IMG/VR virus record: IMGVR_UViG_3300007735_000722
Span: 1 to 40,567 of that record
DNA from: a virus
Direction: 5' to 3' (one strand)
Length of the DNA: 40,567 nt
In this document: positions 29,700-37,614 of the stretch, piece after piece
How positions within the stretch are numbered: the first letter of the stretch is position 1
How the letters are laid out: each line of letters begins with the position of its first letter
Notes under the pieces: model-generated
Database searches by the model: none
What the model was told of the DNA's origin: nothing
Seen by the model: only the letters and a program-made list of their open reading frames with translations
Position numbers and translations under genes: made by a program

Positions 29700-29954
29700 T
29701 CACGGCGTCTTATCCGCTAGGGCTTTAATCTTGGGTGCATGAGCTATTAGGAAGTCGCCAAGGTCGCCCAAGTCGTCAATAAGGGCGTTGAGGTTGGCCT
29801 CATAAACCTCATGGGAGCAGTTGGCCAGCACGTCCCCAAAGAAGCGGTCCACTAGGCCAAGGCTGGTATGGAGGCGCTTGTTCTCGGTTATGAGAAGAGC
29901 GATCCATTCGTGAGCCAGGTCGAGCCGGGCATCCTTGCTAAGTTGCGAATCCAC
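29700..29954 (-). CDS. Hypothetical helical protein (84 aa)
   Basis: GTG start 29954, overlapping the 3' end of the 44-aa gene. MDSQLSKDARLDLAHEWIAL, then ITENKRLHTSLGLVDRFFGD and a C-terminus rich in Leu/Asp helices. AAGAAGG lies immediately before GTG, which is too close, so the start is provisional; no in-frame upstream start exists before a stop. Last gene of the unit after the origin. Function unknown. Confidence 0.5.
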   Translation of the reverse strand: MDSQLSKDARLDLAHEWIALLITENKRLHTSLGLVDRFFGDVLANCSHEVYEANLNALIDDLGDLGDFLIAHAPKIKALADKTP

Positions 29955-30072
29955 CCTTCTTGGCTTTCATCATTTTCCAGACCCGCTTGCTGATGGTGCT
30001 TTTCGCCTTGGGTCTGGATATGCCAAGGCGTTTCCTTCGGTTCATGTTTGCGTACAGGCCGGGGCGTTTCAT
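29938..30072 (-). CDS. Small basic phage protein (44 aa)
   Basis: MKRPGLYANMNRRKRLGISR, then PKAKSTISKRVWKMMKAKKG: very basic. The K-R-P-G-L-Y-A-N opening is a pattern met in many small phage proteins, often near replication or packaging genes, and of unknown function. An extended -10 sits 7 nt before its ATG with no Shine-Dalgarno, so it probably heads its own leaderless transcript. Confidence 0.6.
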   Translation of the reverse strand: MKRPGLYANMNRRKRLGISRPKAKSTISKRVWKMMKAKKGGFAT

Positions 30073-30079
30073 TTCGACG

Positions 30080-30088
30080 AGTTTAGCA
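30080..30088 (-). promoter_or_regulatory. Extended -10 of the post-origin unit
   Basis: TGCTAAACT on the minus strand (88-80) has the TGn extension and a TAnnnT hexamer, and ends 7 nt before ATG 30072. The layout is the same as at the small-terminase gene. A TTTTGT at 17-bp spacing upstream could serve as -35. Confidence 0.4.
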
Positions 30089-30102
30089 TTCAAAAGAACT
30101 AC

Positions 30103-30206
30103 ACAAAATCGGCAGATATTCTCAACCCGGACAGGCGGCGAAGCCCGCCCCGAAGGGCGGGGCGAAATCTTGTTTCGCCCGCCTGCCTTGGAATATCTGG
30201 TTTTGT
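30103..30206. repeat. Nested 100-bp inverted-repeat structure
   Basis: From outside in: ACAAAA (103-108) with TTTTGT (201-206); CAGATATTC (113-121) with GAATATCTG (191-199); CAGGCGG (132-138) with CCGCCTG (179-185); then CCCGCCC-CGAA-GGGCGGG (144-161), or alternatively GGGCGAAA-TCTTG-TTTCGCCC (160-180); offsets are +30000. The DNA could extrude as a cruciform, or the RNA could fold as a branched structure. It lies in non-coding DNA beside three iterons, as at many replication origins. Confidence 0.85.
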
Positions 30207-30224
30207 TTCATTTATATTATAGGT

Positions 30225-30289
30225 GGTGAAACAGAGTAGGAGGCAAACTGGTGAAACAGAGTAGAACCCAAACAAGTGAAACAGAGTAG
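30225..30289. repeat. Three 15-bp iterons with 25-bp period (probable origin)
   Basis: GGTGAAACAGAGTAG occurs at 30225-30239 and 30250-30264, and AGTGAAACAGAGTAG at 30275-30289: start positions exactly 25 bp apart. A partial inverted copy, GTTTCAGCACC, follows at 30300-30310, and CTGAAACGCACC at 30383-30394. An AT-rich stretch (TTTATATTATA at 30211-30221) adjoins. Iterons, an AT-rich melting zone and an adjacent helicase gene are the parts of an iteron origin. The whole non-coding block is 30073-30393, otherwise empty of genes. Confidence 0.75.
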
Positions 30290-30393
30290 GCCGGTCCCCG
30301 TTTCAGCACCCCTTTTTACCATTTTAGGGCTATGTTTTTCAGCCCCAAAAACTGCCCACTAAATACCCCCAAATGGGTATATCTGAAACGCAC

Positions 30394-31806
30394 CTAAAAC
30401 GGCTTGTCGGCAGCCTTGTAAACATCCCCAAACTGCGTGCTGTCCTTGGTAATTCTCTTGGCCTCTACCAACCTCTTTAGGTACCTAGTCAGCGTGGGCT
30501 TGGGCATATTCATCTCTGTCTTGGCCTTTTCAGCCAGCTTGGCGTAAGTCGTCCCGCCCGGCTCAATCAGCGCAATCAATTCATTCTGGTCAAACTTGTG
30601 CTTGTCGTTCGTCTTTAGGTCGTCTGGGTTCTCTTCGGGAGCGTAGGTCATCAGCGGATAACTCCACTTCACGCAGAAGGGATCTACCGGCTTAAAGTCC
30701 CTAACCGTGGCCTCCACCACAAACACCCCATCCTCCTGATGGTGAGAGAGTACCAGAATGGTGTCCGGGTCTCTGGCAAACACCCCGGACCCGCTCATCC
30801 TGTCTATGCTGCTCTTCTTGGTGCTATCCCCCTTGGCAAAGTGGTGGCCAAAAATGACCGCCACATTTCCCTCTACCGCAATCTTATCCATCTCATTCAT
30901 CAGCTCTGCCATGTCCCCGGCGCTGTTCTCATCCTTGCCGCCGTAGAGCTTGTAAATCGGGTCAAAGATGACCACGTCATATTCCTTTTTGGCCAGCTTC
31001 TCTATGATCTTAGGCCGTAGCTTGGCCAAGTCTGCCGAGTATCCCCGCAGGTTCCAGATATGCAGGTTGGACGGCATCTCAATCCCCTTGGCCTCGCATA
31101 TCTTTCTTAGCCTTGCCCGGAAGCTCCACTCCTTGATCTCAAAGTTGATAAACAGCACCCGCGCTTCCCGCGTGGCAAAGTTCCACCATTTGATTGCCTT
31201 GGCCAGACTGATGGCCAGGTCCATGAGCGTCCAGGTCTTCATGGATTTGCTGGTGCCGCCCAAGACCATCTTGCATCCCTTGTGAAGCAGTCCCGCAATC
31301 AGCTCGTCGGGTTCGGGTATGTCGTGGCTGTCCAACTCCGTGGCTGATTGAATGTCGGGTAGTCCATTCCTCGAAAACCCAAGCGTCCTGACCTTGTCCA
31401 CCAGCCCTCCGGCCACCTTGTCGATGTCGGCCTCCTTGTCCTCAACTGCCAACAAAGCCGCATAAGCTGACTCTTGGATGCGCCTTCTGGCTGCCGCCCG
31501 CTTTAACCTATCTAGCCAGAACCCAAACGTGGCTACTGCAACTGACCCGCAAAGCACCTTCTCGCTGAATAATCCAACTGCCCCGCTGCCCAGCTTCTCG
31601 GTGACGTGTTGCCCCATGGCGACTGCGTCCAGCGGAACGCCTTTTTTAATTGCCTTGGCCACCTCCTTGCCCACGGGTTGCCAGTAGTTATCCGGGTTGG
31701 TCAGTCCCTCCCGGTCCCGCTCTAGGAGCGTTGGCTCGGTAAATACCGCCGACAGCACCGACCATTCGGCGTCCTCATCGCGGGCGGGTTGATAGTTGGG
31801 GTTCAT
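30394..31806 (-). CDS. Replicative helicase, RepA-like (RecA-fold ATPase)
   Basis: A 470-aa protein. Residues 1-140 resemble a DnaB-type N-terminal helical domain. The RecA/AAA_25 core follows: Walker A GGTSKSMKTW (183-192, K190), Walker B YDVVIFDPIYKL (276-287), then FGHHFAKGDS (319-328) and the SGSGVFARDPD arginine-finger region (338-348). Residues about 405-465 form a winged helix (LTRYLKRLVEAKRIT). This is the architecture of RSF1010 RepA-like hexameric helicases and related phage proteins. The ATG overlaps the stop of a 37-aa ORF, and the iteron block lies immediately downstream. It likely unwinds at that origin. Confidence 0.82.
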   Translation of the reverse strand: MNPNYQPARDEDAEWSVLSAVFTEPTLLERDREGLTNPDNYWQPVGKEVAKAIKKGVPLDAVAMGQHVTEKLGSGAVGLFSEKVLCGSVAVATFGFWLDRLKRAAARRRIQESAYAALLAVEDKEADIDKVAGGLVDKVRTLGFSRNGLPDIQSATELDSHDIPEPDELIAGLLHKGCKMVLGGTSKSMKTWTLMDLAISLAKAIKWWNFATREARVLFINFEIKEWSFRARLRKICEAKGIEMPSNLHIWNLRGYSADLAKLRPKIIEKLAKKEYDVVIFDPIYKLYGGKDENSAGDMAELMNEMDKIAVEGNVAVIFGHHFAKGDSTKKSSIDRMSGSGVFARDPDTILVLSHHQEDGVFVVEATVRDFKPVDPFCVKWSYPLMTYAPEENPDDLKTNDKHKFDQNELIALIEPGGTTYAKLAEKAKTEMNMPKPTLTRYLKRLVEAKRITKDSTQFGDVYKAADKPF

Positions 31807-31929: not shown

Positions 31930-33048
31930 TTACTTCGTGGCCTGTCCCTCCATCGCCTTCCTGGCCTTCTCCACAATCATGTCCGCCGTGATCGCCCGGA
32001 TTGCGTTGCAGTAAAACTGCGTCCCCTTGGTTCGGTTGGTTGCATCCTTGCACTTGGCTTGTGGTAGCCCCATCTGCGGGTGGCAAGGGGCGTGCGGGCA
32101 GACCTCGCCGACAAAGATGGGGTGCGAGTTGGGGTAATAGAGGCACCGATCCTCTGGGGCGTAGCTACCCCATAGGCTGACCGTAGCTGTATCCAGCCCA
32201 GCGCTGGCGTGCAGCACCGCGCTATCCGGGCAGACCACAAACTCGGCGGCTTGCAGGACGGGGAAAAGGCTTCGGAACTGCGAGGTGCAGTTGAACAAAT
32301 CAAACACCCGCTTGTGTGAGACGCGGAAATCCACCGACGGGCTGGCCCCCACCGGCACCGCATGGAAATCTGGGAAGGCTTCAAGCAGCGCCAGCACCGC
32401 CTCTTTACCCATCTCCGGCGGATAGCTCCTGGTCGGTCCGCTGGCACAGACGTGATAGACAAAGTAAGGCTCTGGTATCGGCCACTTGTTAGCCTTCTTT
32501 AACTCATCCAAATCCGTGGCCACCACCGTCAGCGTGGGGCGCTTGTAAATGGGATCGACCTTGACCTCATCCGTCTCGGCTCCCATCCATCGGTACACGC
32601 GGTCAAAGAAGTTCCCCGGCCCCGTCCCTAGCTCTGTCCCCATGACTTTCCCGCTGAACAAATCATCCAGCGGAACGTGTGCGTCATACATATCCCAAGC
32701 CTCTGCCGTTGGGGGCAGGGGAAGCATCCTTGCGCCCAACCCCCCATAGAGCGTCAGGTTCCTAGCCGGAGCGTAAACGTCCACAATCCCTCCAGACTTT
32801 TCTACCAGGTAACGAATGATGCCTGTCGCCATGATGGCGTCGCCTAGTGCGCCCGCCCGGTACACTGCCGTTGCCCCGCCCACCGACCTGCCCGGATGGT
32901 AGGGCTTGATCTTGTGCGGGCAGGGGAGGAAATCTTGGTTAAACGGATGGCCGCTTAACTCGTCGGGCAGCACATAGGTGGTGAACGGGTAACAGTAGTT
33001 GTTGTCGATCTGGTGAATGCCGGGAGTTTTGTTGACCCACAGCTTCAT
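31930..33048 (-). CDS. Glycosyltransferase family 9-like (heptosyltransferase-like)
   Basis: A 372-aa protein from ATG 33048 (ATGA overlap with the HTH gene). It shows the GT-B pattern of GT9: AVYRAGALGDAIMATGIIRY (61-80) near the N-terminus, and in the C-terminal half FVVCPDSAVLHASAGLDTAT (270-289) and SLWGSYAPEDRCLYYPN, where the donor sugar-nucleotide is bound. A cysteine cluster (CPHAPC, AKC, YC; about 316-346) is added at the C-terminus. Cellular GT9 enzymes add heptose to LPS core. In a phage it may alter host LPS, or glycosylate DNA or virion protein. Confidence 0.75.
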   Translation of the reverse strand: MKLWVNKTPGIHQIDNNYCYPFTTYVLPDELSGHPFNQDFLPCPHKIKPYHPGRSVGGATAVYRAGALGDAIMATGIIRYLVEKSGGIVDVYAPARNLTLYGGLGARMLPLPPTAEAWDMYDAHVPLDDLFSGKVMGTELGTGPGNFFDRVYRWMGAETDEVKVDPIYKRPTLTVVATDLDELKKANKWPIPEPYFVYHVCASGPTRSYPPEMGKEAVLALLEAFPDFHAVPVGASPSVDFRVSHKRVFDLFNCTSQFRSLFPVLQAAEFVVCPDSAVLHASAGLDTATVSLWGSYAPEDRCLYYPNSHPIFVGEVCPHAPCHPQMGLPQAKCKDATNRTKGTQFYCNAIRAITADMIVEKARKAMEGQATK

Positions 33049-33500
33049 CGCCTGCCCCCTTGGTAGCCTTGGTATGGCTGCCAGTTGTGCTTGGCCGCGT
33101 GGCACACCGCCGTGTGGTTACAGCCCCAGGCCCGCGCAATCTGCTGAAATGTGTAGCCCTGCTCCCGCTGGATGCGCCACAAGGCCCACCGCTTTTGGGC
33201 AATGGCCATGCGCCGGTTGCCTCCGCCGGTCCGGCGCTGTCCCCGCTTCTTAAGGCTTGGCCGAATCTTTAACTCCTCTGGCACCACGATGTCGGCCTCA
33301 TCCAGTATCCCGGCGATTACCGTCTTGGCCTGCTCCTCGTTTTGCTGACGAATCACCGCCCGCCCCGTGGCCAGTTCCACTCTGAGTTGCCGCAAACTTT
33401 CCACGGTTTGTTTGAGTTGCAGTTCCAGTTCCTCGTTCTTTCGTTCTGCCTGCGCCACCCGGTAGGTGAGGGTGGAGATGGCTGGGTCGATTGCGTTCAT
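33045..33500 (-). CDS. Coiled-coil plus HTH DNA-binding protein, DnaA-domain-IV-like
   Basis: 151 aa. Residues about 10-60 form a coiled coil (NEELELQLKQTVESLRQLRV); residues 60-85 a linker; 85-105 a basic stretch (KKRGQRRTGGGNRRMA). Residues 112-140 (GYTFQQIARAWGCNHTAVCH) resemble the DnaA domain IV HTH core (IGxxFGxxHTTVxxA). ATG 33500 overlaps the methyltransferase stop (ATGA). Dimeric DNA binding is likely. It is a candidate initiator binding the iterons near 30.25 kb, or a transcription regulator. Confidence 0.6.
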   Translation of the reverse strand: MNAIDPAISTLTYRVAQAERKNEELELQLKQTVESLRQLRVELATGRAVIRQQNEEQAKTVIAGILDEADIVVPEELKIRPSLKKRGQRRTGGGNRRMAIAQKRWALWRIQREQGYTFQQIARAWGCNHTAVCHAAKHNWQPYQGYQGGRR

Positions 33501-34981
33501 TTAGTTTCCTCCTTGTTTGTGGTTGAAAAAGCTACAACCTTGGCAATCCTCTCCCCAATCCACCGCATACACGGAACGGCCATCGAATTGCCCAGAGCCT
33601 TATACCTAGGCCCGTCCGGGCATTGGTCGGCTGGCTTGTTTCGCCAAGGGATCAGCGTGTGTTCGTCGGGAAAGCCCTGAAGTCGCTCGCATTCTTTTGG
33701 CGTCAGTCTGCGGACGGCCATTCTGTCTTTTGGGTTTATCACCCCGCCGGTATGGTTGATGTCGGATCTGGACGATGAGATGGCTTGAGACTTTTCGTTG
33801 ATTGTCTTGTTGTAGCAATCCACGGCCATCACCTTCGCCCCGCTGGTGTTGGTCCCGCCCACCGCCTGCGTCAGTGTTGCGGACACATCGCCGTCGATTG
33901 TTTGGTTGTAAACATCCACGGCAACGGCAACTAGCGGCGTTCCTCGCCCAGTACCGTCCTCGCTGGCATCAAAGCCAACCCCTCGCAACGAATGCGCTAT
34001 GGCGTGCTTGTCGCCCTTGGTCAGAGTTGGTGCCGGATCGCCCGGCTTGCCTACGCCAAGACCGTTGCCCTTGCCGTCCTGCTTGTCGCCGCGCTTGCCG
34101 GCGTTGCGGGTGGCCTGATCGTGGATGGGGATGGCCTGCACCAACCCAGATCCGCCTTGCGAGAACAACTCCTGATTAGAATACCCAATCGCACCAGTGT
34201 TGAAGGATTGGTTGAGTGTGGGATGGACGCCAGATCCCTCCCAGTGTGATTTCTTTTCGGCAACCAAGTCAGTCGCATCTTTGTAGTCCCTAGCCTTCAT
34301 GGCCGATGCGGTTCCATCGTCCGAGTATTCCCCGAACGCCTGCATCCTGAATCCTCCCGCTATGCCACCTGCTCCAACGCCTTCTTGAGCATTGGGGGAA
34401 GCTCCTTGCCCCGCTTCTCGGCTCGGCGGAGAATCCCGGCGCACGCTTTCGGACTCAAATAGAACCTTTGCGGCAAGCTCCCAGTTTCCAAGGTGGCCGA
34501 CAACGAACACACGACGGCGTCTTTGGGCCACTCCGAACCATTGAGCGTCCAAGACCCGGTAGGACCACCCATACCCCAACTCCCCCAACGCCCCGAGGAA
34601 GGAACCAAAATCCCTTCCTCCGTTGCTGGACAGGACGCCGGGGACATTCTCCCAGACAACCCATCGAGGCCGGAGACGTTGAGCGATTTCAAGAAAGGTA
34701 AGCATGAGTCCTCCCCTTGGGTCGTGGAGTCCCTTCCTAAGTCCTGCGACTGAGAAGGATTGGCAGGGCGTGCCTCCGACCAGAAGGTCAACTGATCCGC
34801 TTGGTATATTCCATTGCTCATGTTTGGTCATGTCTCCGTAGTTGGGAACCTCCGGCCACCGATGCTTCAGCACGGCTGCTGGGAATGGTTCGATTTCTGA
34901 AAATGCGACCGGCTCCCATCCAAGCGGCTCCCACGCCACGCTGGCTGCCTCGATGCCAGAACAGACGGAAAGGTATTTCAT
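33497..34981 (-). CDS. DNA (cytosine-5) methyltransferase
   Basis: A 494-aa C5 methyltransferase with motif I SVCSGIEAASVAWEPLGW (5-22), motif IV GGTPCQSFSVAGLRKG (69-84, catalytic C73), motif VI VVWENVPGV (108-116, E111), motif VIII QRRRRVFVVGH (153-163), and motifs IX-X near the end (RRLTPKECERLQGFPD and YKALGNSMAVP). A 250-residue variable target-recognition region, with Gly/Asp-rich insert, separates VIII from IX. ATG 34981 overlaps the upstream stop (ATGA). No cognate restriction enzyme is evident. It probably protects phage DNA from host restriction. A second ORF lies in another frame at 34360-34821. Confidence 0.92.
   Translation of the reverse strand: MKYLSVCSGIEAASVAWEPLGWEPVAFSEIEPFPAAVLKHRWPEVPNYGDMTKHEQWNIPSGSVDLLVGGTPCQSFSVAGLRKGLHDPRGGLMLTFLEIAQRLRPRWVVWENVPGVLSSNGGRDFGSFLGALGELGYGWSYRVLDAQWFGVAQRRRRVFVVGHLGNWELAAKVLFESESVRRDSPPSREAGQGASPNAQEGVGAGGIAGGFRMQAFGEYSDDGTASAMKARDYKDATDLVAEKKSHWEGSGVHPTLNQSFNTGAIGYSNQELFSQGGSGLVQAIPIHDQATRNAGKRGDKQDGKGNGLGVGKPGDPAPTLTKGDKHAIAHSLRGVGFDASEDGTGRGTPLVAVAVDVYNQTIDGDVSATLTQAVGGTNTSGAKVMAVDCYNKTINEKSQAISSSRSDINHTGGVINPKDRMAVRRLTPKECERLQGFPDEHTLIPWRNKPADQCPDGPRYKALGNSMAVPCMRWIGERIAKVVAFSTTNKEETK
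34360..34821 (-). CDS. 153-aa ORF overprinted on the cytosine methyltransferase gene
   Basis: Same strand, different frame, within methyltransferase codons about 54-207. The sequence has the look of a family I know from phages and metagenomes: QLTFWSEARPANPSQSQDLG near the start, then MGGPTGSWTLNGSEW, VCSLSATLETGSLPQRFYLS and SPKACAGILRRAEKRGKELP, ending LPPMLKKALEQVA. Such proteins are annotated near dcm genes. Translation is not proven: the pattern could be a conserved shadow of the methyltransferase motifs (its PSQSQD segment lies over TPCQSF). No good Shine-Dalgarno precedes the ATG; GGAG is about 14 nt upstream. Confidence 0.4.
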   Translation of the reverse strand: MSNGIYQADQLTFWSEARPANPSQSQDLGRDSTTQGEDSCLPFLKSLNVSGLDGLSGRMSPASCPATEEGILVPSSGRWGSWGMGGPTGSWTLNGSEWPKDAVVCSLSATLETGSLPQRFYLSPKACAGILRRAEKRGKELPPMLKKALEQVA

Positions 34982-35181
34982 TTGCACAAATGACACGGAT
35001 GTTTGCCATTCTTAATCTGCTCATCCCGCTTGGCGTACTGCTCGGCTCGCTCCCGGCATTCCTTGGCAATGCGCTTGGCCATGCCGATGCGGGTCAGTGC
35101 CATGCGCGGCTTGTCTTCCTTCACCGACTTCTCAGCTCTGGTCAGGATGTCCTCAATCCAAGACAGGCGCTTTAAGCTCAT
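34978..35181 (-). CDS. Hypothetical helical protein (67 aa)
   Basis: ATG 35181 overlaps the upstream stop (ATGA). MSLKRLSWIEDILTRAEKSV continues as one long charged helix (RMALTRIGMAKRIAKECRER) and ends in HPCHLCK, a CxxC-type pair near the C-terminus. Family not recognised. Its own stop overlaps the methyltransferase start. Confidence 0.6.
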   Translation of the reverse strand: MSLKRLSWIEDILTRAEKSVKEDKPRMALTRIGMAKRIAKECRERAEQYAKRDEQIKNGKHPCHLCK

Positions 35182-36288: not shown

Positions 36289-36506
36289 TTCTTTTTCCTT
36301 GTGCCAGCCCTGTCCTGGCACCAGTGGGCGTAGGCGTTCCATAGCTCGGCGGCCTGGACGGCCTCGTCCTTGGTCTTGAAAACATCCGTGATTGGGGGAA
36401 GCCCGTTGGCCGGTTCCGCCCCCCAAAGCCGTGGGCCAATCACGTTTCCCATGGTGGTTCTAAGCCTCCACGCCCCGCACTCTTGGACGACCATCACAAA
36501 GGTCAT
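36270..36506 (-). CDS. Hypothetical protein (78 aa)
   Basis: ATG 36506 overlaps the TGA of the XF1762-like gene (ATGA). MTFVMVVQECGAWRLRTTMG, then ITDVFKTKDEAVQAAELWNA, a small alpha/beta fold with a basic tail (GTRKKKCTRKH). Function unknown. Confidence 0.55.
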   Translation of the reverse strand: MTFVMVVQECGAWRLRTTMGNVIGPRLWGAEPANGLPPITDVFKTKDEAVQAAELWNAYAHWCQDRAGTRKKKCTRKH

Positions 36507-36952
36507 ATGCAAACCGCCTCCCAGCGGTATTTGGGTTCTTTGTAAACTTCCTGTTCCTTGCGGCTGCGGTTAGGCCGAGTCCAACTTTGAGCCTTACAAT
36601 CCGCCGCCTTTTTCCATCCGGCTCCGCGCAACGAATCACCGCTTTCTGATTGCAGGGTGTAAGTCAAAATCTTTTGACCACCCATCGCCTGCCAAACCCG
36701 GCGAGCAGCAGAATAAAGAAAAGAACAGGTATTTCTTGGGGCATTTGGCGCTACTACAAGACGAGTAATTTCTGCCTGTAGGGCTTTATCGAGCAGTCTT
36801 GCTACTGGTCGGCCAACGATTACGGCACCCACAAGTTCGCCATTGTGTTCAGCGCCTATTGCAAACTTTCCTCCGTGAGTAGGAGCGTTGTGTCTATGGT
36901 GTTCGCCAACCACCTGATTGGCCTCACGAATTGTGATAGGCACAACCTTCAT
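36503..36952 (-). CDS. XF1762-family protein (GNAT-like acetyltransferase)
   Basis: 149 aa from ATG 36952 (ATGA overlap). MKVVPITIREANQVVGEHHR, then KFAIGAEHNGELVGAVIVGR, PVARLLDKALQAEITRLVVA and FLYSAARRVWQAMGGQKILT, and TYTLQSESGDSLRGAGWK closely match the XF1762 family, which is common in phages and related to GNAT acetyltransferases. The substrate is unknown. It follows the GT8-like gene directly. Confidence 0.75.
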   Translation of the reverse strand: MKVVPITIREANQVVGEHHRHNAPTHGGKFAIGAEHNGELVGAVIVGRPVARLLDKALQAEITRLVVAPNAPRNTCSFLYSAARRVWQAMGGQKILTYTLQSESGDSLRGAGWKKAADCKAQSWTRPNRSRKEQEVYKEPKYRWEAVCI

Positions 36953-37614
36953 CGCCCCATCTCCTTCCACTTGGCGTCGTCGGCTTTGACCGTCTCAATC
37001 AGTTTGTCCATGTCACCCGACTGCCCGGCGTAGTGAATGATCTTGCTGTCCTTGTAGCGATCTAAGCCGAAGTGCTGTTCCACCGAAGTCATGCAGTTGT
37101 AGGCTGGGTCCAGGTCTTCCAGCGTGACGCCCCATAGGTGGGCTTGAATGTTCATCCATGTCTGCTCTCCAAAATGGTTTGGGTGCAGCGCCAGCGGGGG
37201 CATGGAGAAGATTCCGGCGCAGCGGTTGGTTACGACAAAGACGCCGGTATTGACGTAGAAGCGTGGCTCAATATGCCCGCCAAAAGCCTCGGCCAGCTTG
37301 GCCATGCCGGGCTTGCGATCCAGATATGCGCCCTCGTCAAAGGCTTTGAAGCCGTTGCAGTTCTTTCCTATGTCCTCGCAGTCCTTGGCCACCAGCACGT
37401 CCGCGTCAAAGAACGTGATTTGTCCGTAGCCTTTCGTGGCCATGAAGTTTGCAATGATCGACTTGGTGTACTGGTTGGGTTCAGTCAGCGGCTTGGCGAT
37501 GGCCAGAAAATCCTGTTCCGTGCGCTTGGCATAATCCTCCATGCGCGGAGCGGTCAGCTTCAGTAGCTCCTCCCACTTGGCCCCAAAGGCTTGAGTGATT
37601 ACCGCCCGCTTCAT
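36949..37614 (-). CDS. Glycosyltransferase family 8-like
   Basis: 221 aa from ATG 37614 (ATGA overlap). GT-A signs: a hydrophobic strand ending in the metal-binding DxD motif (ITFFDADVLV, D70-A71-D72), then PRFYVNTGVFVVTNRCAGIF (117-136), HFGEQTWMNI (148-157), LDPAYNCM (168-175) and KIIHYAGQSG (191-200), the ordered landmarks of GT8 enzymes. Uses a nucleotide sugar. No DNA-glycosylation partner (hydroxymethylase) is visible, so the acceptor is unclear: LPS, a protein, or modified DNA. Confidence 0.75.
   Translation of the reverse strand: MKRAVITQAFGAKWEELLKLTAPRMEDYAKRTEQDFLAIAKPLTEPNQYTKSIIANFMATKGYGQITFFDADVLVAKDCEDIGKNCNGFKAFDEGAYLDRKPGMAKLAEAFGGHIEPRFYVNTGVFVVTNRCAGIFSMPPLALHPNHFGEQTWMNIQAHLWGVTLEDLDPAYNCMTSVEQHFGLDRYKDSKIIHYAGQSGDMDKLIETVKADDAKWKEMGR

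Follow-up and report, generated by a model that had tools for sequence, protein, structure and literature searches.

A RepA/DnaB-like helicase gene followed by a probable iteron-type origin of replication in an uncultured podophage family

The Sulfolobus plasmid pRN1 replicates from a 100-nt stem-loop located 3' of its rep gene, and its Rep protein ends in a winged helix; the same arrangement was noted by its authors, from sequence analysis, in the Bordetella phage BIP-1 (PMC4234260). In phage P4 it is the winged helix of the replication protein alpha that itself binds the origin repeats, and the IncQ plasmid RSF1010 employs a separate protein, RepC (PMC4234260). The oriV of RSF1010 combines a RepA-fold hexameric helicase with iterons and with hairpins for single-strand priming (ssiA/ssiB). 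Streptococcus thermophilus phage Sfi21, whose replication module is of the D5-type primase kind, has a noncoding, repeat-bearing origin 3' of its primase gene.

The locus considered here lies in a virus record of 40,567 bp (the whole stretch of DNA analysed, referred to below as the window), whose genes include those for an integrase, a portal-like protein, the major head protein and a terminase. The window contains no tRNA and no Rfam match, and comparison of its 28-34 kb region with named phages at the DNA level gave no close relative, similarity being limited to the methyltransferase gene. Between the stop codon of a helicase gene and the start of a small gene, p44, is a 321-bp gap (Table 1) that, judged from sequence comparisons, is probably an iteron-type replication origin directly 3' of the phage's own replicative helicase gene. 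An earlier note on this DNA had called the gap the only gene-free stretch of more than 300 bp; no longer one was seen on a greedy, approximate ORF map, but the left edge moves to 30073 because the conserved p44 gene had been overlooked. The p44 product is a basic protein (MKRPGLYANMNRR...) present in all replication-module groups of the family. In the window and its relatives an extended -10-like sequence, TGnTAnACT or TGTGGTACAAT, is found a few bases 5' of the p44 start codon, a proximity that suggests leaderless transcription of p44.

Table 1. Features of the putative origin and of the genes discussed with it (positions are those of the window)
Feature	Position	Strand	Basis or remark
p44, conserved 44-aa gene, phrog_25774; bounds putative origin	29938..30072	-	family comparison
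p44 extended -10-like promoter, TGCTAAACTCGTCGAA-ATG	30070..30088	-	similar elements also where the replication module is a different one
Putative origin, whole	30073..30393		noncoding 321-bp gap, helicase stop to p44 start
Nested three-way hairpin (cruciform)	30103..30206		folding against shuffles; position conserved in relatives
6-bp extension of the 9-bp outer stem	30103-30108/30201-30206		fold
Outer stem, left arm, CAGATATTC, 9 bp	30113..30121		inverted-repeat search
7-bp stem	30132-30138/30179-30185		fold
Inner hairpin CCCGCCC-CGAA-GGGCGGG, 7-bp stem 30144-30150/30155-30161	30144..30161		fold
Inner hairpin GCGAAA-TCTTG-TTTCGC, 6-bp stem 30162-30167/30173-30178	30162..30178		fold
Outer stem, right arm, GAATATCTG, 9 bp	30191..30199		inverted-repeat search
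Inverted iteron core GTTTCA, left of iterons	30205..30210	-	core count
AT-rich block CATTTATATTATAGG (minus strand CCTATAATATAAATG), DUE-like	30209..30223		relatives' counterparts CCTATATATATA / CCTATAATATAAAA
Iteron 1, GGTGAAACAGAGTAG	30225..30239	+	repeat search, shuffles
Iteron 2, GGTGAAACAGAGTAG	30250..30264	+	repeat search, shuffles
Iteron 3, AGTGAAACAGAGTAG	30275..30289	+	repeat search, shuffles
Inverted iteron core GTTTCA, right of iterons	30300..30305	-	core count
Extra core copy TGAAAC	30384..30389	+	core count
Replicative helicase with a DnaB_N-like domain, a RepA/AAA_25 core and a winged helix at the C terminus; candidate origin-binding protein	30394..31806	-	profiles, model
HTH protein, initiator candidate of the earlier note	33045..33500	-	not coupled to iterons

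In its general plan the locus resembles pRN1 and BIP-1 in that a stem-loop some 100 nt long closely follows the 3' end of the replication gene, whose product has a winged helix at its C terminus. However, pRN1 lacks iterons, and its protein joins a prim-pol to an SF3 helicase, whereas the window encodes an AAA_25 protein without prim-pol. The RepA-fold helicase, the iterons and the hairpin recall RSF1010; yet the RSF1010 system (RepA, RepB', RepC) has RepC as a separate iteron binder, while the window has a helicase with winged-helix and DnaB_N-like domains, a single nested hairpin and a repeat spacing of 25 bp. No RepC was named among the window genes scanned in Pfam/PHROGs, no RepB'-type primase for ssi hairpins was found beside the helicase, and no HUH Rep nickase, as used at a rolling-circle double-strand origin, was seen among the window proteins scanned. 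The likeness to P4 alpha lies in the repeat-binding winged helix, which is proposed for the window; the helicase and primase types differ.

The three iterons, (G/A)GTGAAACAGAGTAG, start exactly 25 bp apart, as had been reported, and are identical over 14 bases, with a first base of G or A. This is far beyond chance: the longest k-mer present in three copies within the 321-bp gap is 14 nt, compared with a maximum of 7 in 1000 dinucleotide shuffles. The window has no further copy of the 14-mer, even at 2 mismatches, and searches of IMG/VR for iteron pairs, exact and relaxed, returned no other record. Of 23 occurrences of the core GTTTCA/TGAAAC in the window, 7 fall within 30066-30389; elsewhere there are at most 2 per 200 bp. 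The gap presents two of the features looked for in an iteron origin: at least three direct repeats in noncoding DNA beside a replication gene, and, adjoining them, the AT-rich stretch already pointed out, a DUE-like block that has a counterpart in 72/73 relatives.

On the other side of this block is the nest of inverted repeats, whose presence is likewise confirmed, with stems of 9 (+6), 7, 7 and 6 bp. Folded as single-stranded DNA, 30095-30215 has an energy of -34.5 kcal/mol (z = -7.3), which none of 200 shuffles equals; folded as RNA, it has z = -4.6. The sequence of the window's own hairpin is present in no other IMG/VR record, so covariation was followed on the hairpins of relatives, of which 73 loci supply 19 distinct sequences, many closely related. 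Since a MAFFT alignment placed the stem wrongly, pairs were counted on a loop-anchored alignment; this is biased towards structure, and against the control of slid arms, in which 45-64% of stem cells pair, 89% are paired in the true register. Double (compensatory) changes are present in 7/9 pairs, and the loop, TCCTTAGTCC, is near-constant.

The adjacent gene encodes an AAA_25-family helicase with a RecA fold (Pfam/PHROGs). A profile made from this protein and 18 relatives matches RSF1010 RepA (1g8y) with E = 3.6e-5, which bears out the earlier description of a RepA-like helicase, and its N terminus matches DnaB. The structure model, of middling confidence (pLDDT 72), resembles DnaB along its whole length and RepA in the core (1nlf, TM 0.69 by target length); the order of its last helices and strands is that of a winged helix. 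Scanning IMG/VR with the single protein gave no match, and the relatives were recovered by an alignment-based scan. No primase gene adjoins the helicase gene in the window. Relatives encode a 309-aa primase-like protein (L049 10749-11678 and relatives) that has the AEP-like motifs VVESD, SLHGWF and QPVRIPG and no significant family match; a structure model of it was poor and was discarded. Occurrence of the hairpin loop TCCTTAGTCC is limited to relatives with a gene for this protein. The window, a contrast of one genome, has neither the loop nor the 309-aa protein and has the DnaB_N-like domain instead, which fits the use of host DnaG by the window phage.

It has been possible to follow the locus through a large podophage family, the loci of which were collected by scans with the head protein (44) and with a glycosyltransferase-like early protein (80). 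Gene order is kept: glycosyltransferase-like gene, replication module, p44, p84. Three replication modules are found in the same slot, namely an AAA_25 helicase, a D5-type primase-helicase, and a primase + AAA_25 fusion. In the 73 loci with an AAA_25 helicase short direct repeats come first, followed by an AT block that is often a palindrome (CCCTTATATATATAAGGG) and after it by a nested hairpin (73/73). The repeats directly follow the helicase stop codon and are of the GTGTCA, CTGTCA or CTTTCA/CTATCA/CAGTCA types, sharing a TCA core with those of the window. The earlier note had named absence from close relatives as grounds for giving up its reading; the letters of the iterons are indeed absent elsewhere, but the architecture is kept. 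With a D5-type module the hairpin is missing from 7/7 relatives and the AT block from 6/7. In G001, a close relative, helicase and gap are both replaced by a module encoding a Prim-Pol/D5-type protein, and the flanking genes are still 65-88% identical. The primase + AAA_25 module (L102 and others) has ACCGCAA four times around TACCCCTTATAGGGGTA. By this comparison the cis element moves together with the replication gene.

Other features of the early region were recorded alongside. The D5-type module of G001 contains a 30-nt inverted repeat, GGGACAGATGGGAC, in a Zn-ribbon-like ORF (L052 4266-4401); this motif is kept in L127 and absent from other D5-type loci. Just before the replication module the window has a glycosyltransferase-9-like gene (31930-33105), also present in relatives L054-L133; a scan found relatives of its product encoded in 311 viral-contig stretches, and a host search of genome contigs with the protein gave no match. 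Two further genes of the early region encode a C5 methyltransferase (33497-34996) and a Mom-like protein for DNA modification (36503-36970), and with the glycosyltransferase-like gene they could possibly form a DNA hypermodification cluster.

A similar arrangement is seen beyond the family. In 12 isolate phages that have a related AAA_25 gene followed by a gap of at least 149 bp (mostly nearest matches plus a few distant ones, a non-random sample with several related streptococcal phages), significant triple repeats are present in 10/12 of these gaps (reached by at most 6/300 shuffles, at least the 98th percentile). Among control gaps from the same stretches, the count is 1/14 at the 6/300 cut (Fisher p 0.0002) and 2/14 at 9/300 (p 0.001). 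In Faecalibacterium phage FP_Lugh and in Aster a CCTATATATAATA block and a GC-rich nested hairpin are present too, arranged as in the family, and Bacillus phage BCJA1c is a further isolate with this layout. Because similar layouts are found in phages of Streptococcus, Enterococcus, Faecalibacterium, Bacillus and Burkholderia, the origin looks less unusual in kind than it had been called. No sizeable gap follows the helicase gene in three distant homologues, those of Yersinia P744, Gordonia GTE2 and Mycobacterium Thonko. The closest full-length helicases, 47-54% identical, come from 33 contigs of other phages (L134-L166), and in the 16 of these that were scanned there are no triple repeats near the helicase gene. 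Here a block of about 100 bp right after the helicase stop is conserved at about 90% or more on average, after which similarity collapses; it may or may not be the origin of these phages. The block contains an inverted pair, GTATTTCATTCAATA / TATTGAAAATAC, and a TAACCC..GGGTTA hairpin.

Taken together, the layout conserved at this position, its exchange along with the replication module, and the reappearance of repeats 3' of the AAA_25 genes of isolates support well the proposal that the gap is an origin. Within the same origin, the iterons might instead be read by a separate initiator, as RepC does for RSF1010; this is unlikely. The candidate put forward earlier, a DnaA-domain-IV-like protein encoded at 33045-33500, has an HTH and a weak match to Bac_DnaA_C (Pfam; 14.5 bits, below the cut-off of 31.5). 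However, its gene is absent from most of the AAA_25 relatives that keep the layout and is present in relatives such as G001, which have the D5-type module and lack the layout, so it is not the partner of the repeats in the family at large and was rejected in that role; in the window phage alone it could still be. A non-exhaustive search saw no other protein that tracks with the repeats.

A different reading of the site is that it is a regulatory junction, in which the hairpin terminates the early operon, and p44 and the genes downstream are transcribed from an activator-dependent promoter made up of the repeats and CCTATAATAT. The site does lie between the early and late modules, the minus strand reads TATAAT next to the repeats, and in some relatives (L057, L059) the hairpin is followed by TTTTTCTG. 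Against this, an extended -10-like element of its own precedes p44 in all groups, including those of the D5 type without repeats or hairpin; neither a σ70 promoter nor a minus-strand terminator (hairpin then T run) scored in the window's gap, where the one terminator match is weak and on the plus strand (30146); the AT block of many relatives is a palindrome and not a simple -10; and similar repeats lie 3' of AAA_25 genes in unrelated phages. That the site is such a regulatory junction is quite improbable.

By the usual convention a maximum of cumulative GC skew marks a replication terminus. The inflection that the earlier note proposed to look for at 30.1-30.3 kb is present, but it has the wrong sign for an origin: in 12/12 genomes, the window included, the maximum lies near the site, and the minimum is 45-60% of the genome distant, on about the opposite side of the circle. 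That the site is a terminus, or another fork-arrest or packaging site, is nevertheless very improbable, since exchange of the replication protein replaces the site as well but leaves the terminase genes in place, and the same skew is seen without the repeats, its shift coinciding with the early/late border. For these last two reasons GC skew is uninformative here and does not support an origin either; an analysis of third positions gave no clear signal either way. The window's skew minimum lies inside a structural gene about 21 kb downstream of p44, and the skew pattern is independent of the replication module.

For the origin that is favoured here, a mechanism can be proposed. The iterons are most likely recognised by the C-terminal winged helix of the helicase, given their position, the precedents of pRN1 and P4 (PMC4234260), and the shared TCA repeat core. 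Helicase molecules would bind the GTTTCA-cored iterons in this way, the adjacent AT block would melt, and the RepA/DnaB-like ring would then load. The hairpin, either extruded or exposed as a single strand, would serve as the start site for priming. In most relatives priming at the hairpin would fall to a separate primase-like protein that has archaeo-eukaryotic-type motifs; in the window phage it would fall to host DnaG, recruited by the DnaB_N-like domain. The primers would be extended by host polymerase.

More tentatively, and with the balance of doubt against it, this may represent a widespread class of phage origin, in which a single RepA/DnaB-like winged-helix helicase acts as both initiator and helicase, loads at fast-evolving iterons 3' of its gene and primes at a co-evolving hairpin, the helicase-origin cassette being exchanged among phages. 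A limited search of the open-access literature found no papers on such an arrangement in AAA_25 phages, which is a weak sign of novelty; the probable origin is new in sequence and a variant in architecture, with clear precedents.

The origins of most environmental phages are unknown. The present comparison offers a positional rule: 3' of a RepA/AAA_25 helicase gene, iterons, an AT block and a hairpin should be sought. The rule applied throughout a large family of uncultured podophages, and the part that concerns repeats applied to most of the isolates sampled as well, making origin prediction testable in ordinary laboratory phages. It also suggests that the usual separate initiator and loader could be replaced by a helicase that contains a DNA-binding domain of its own.
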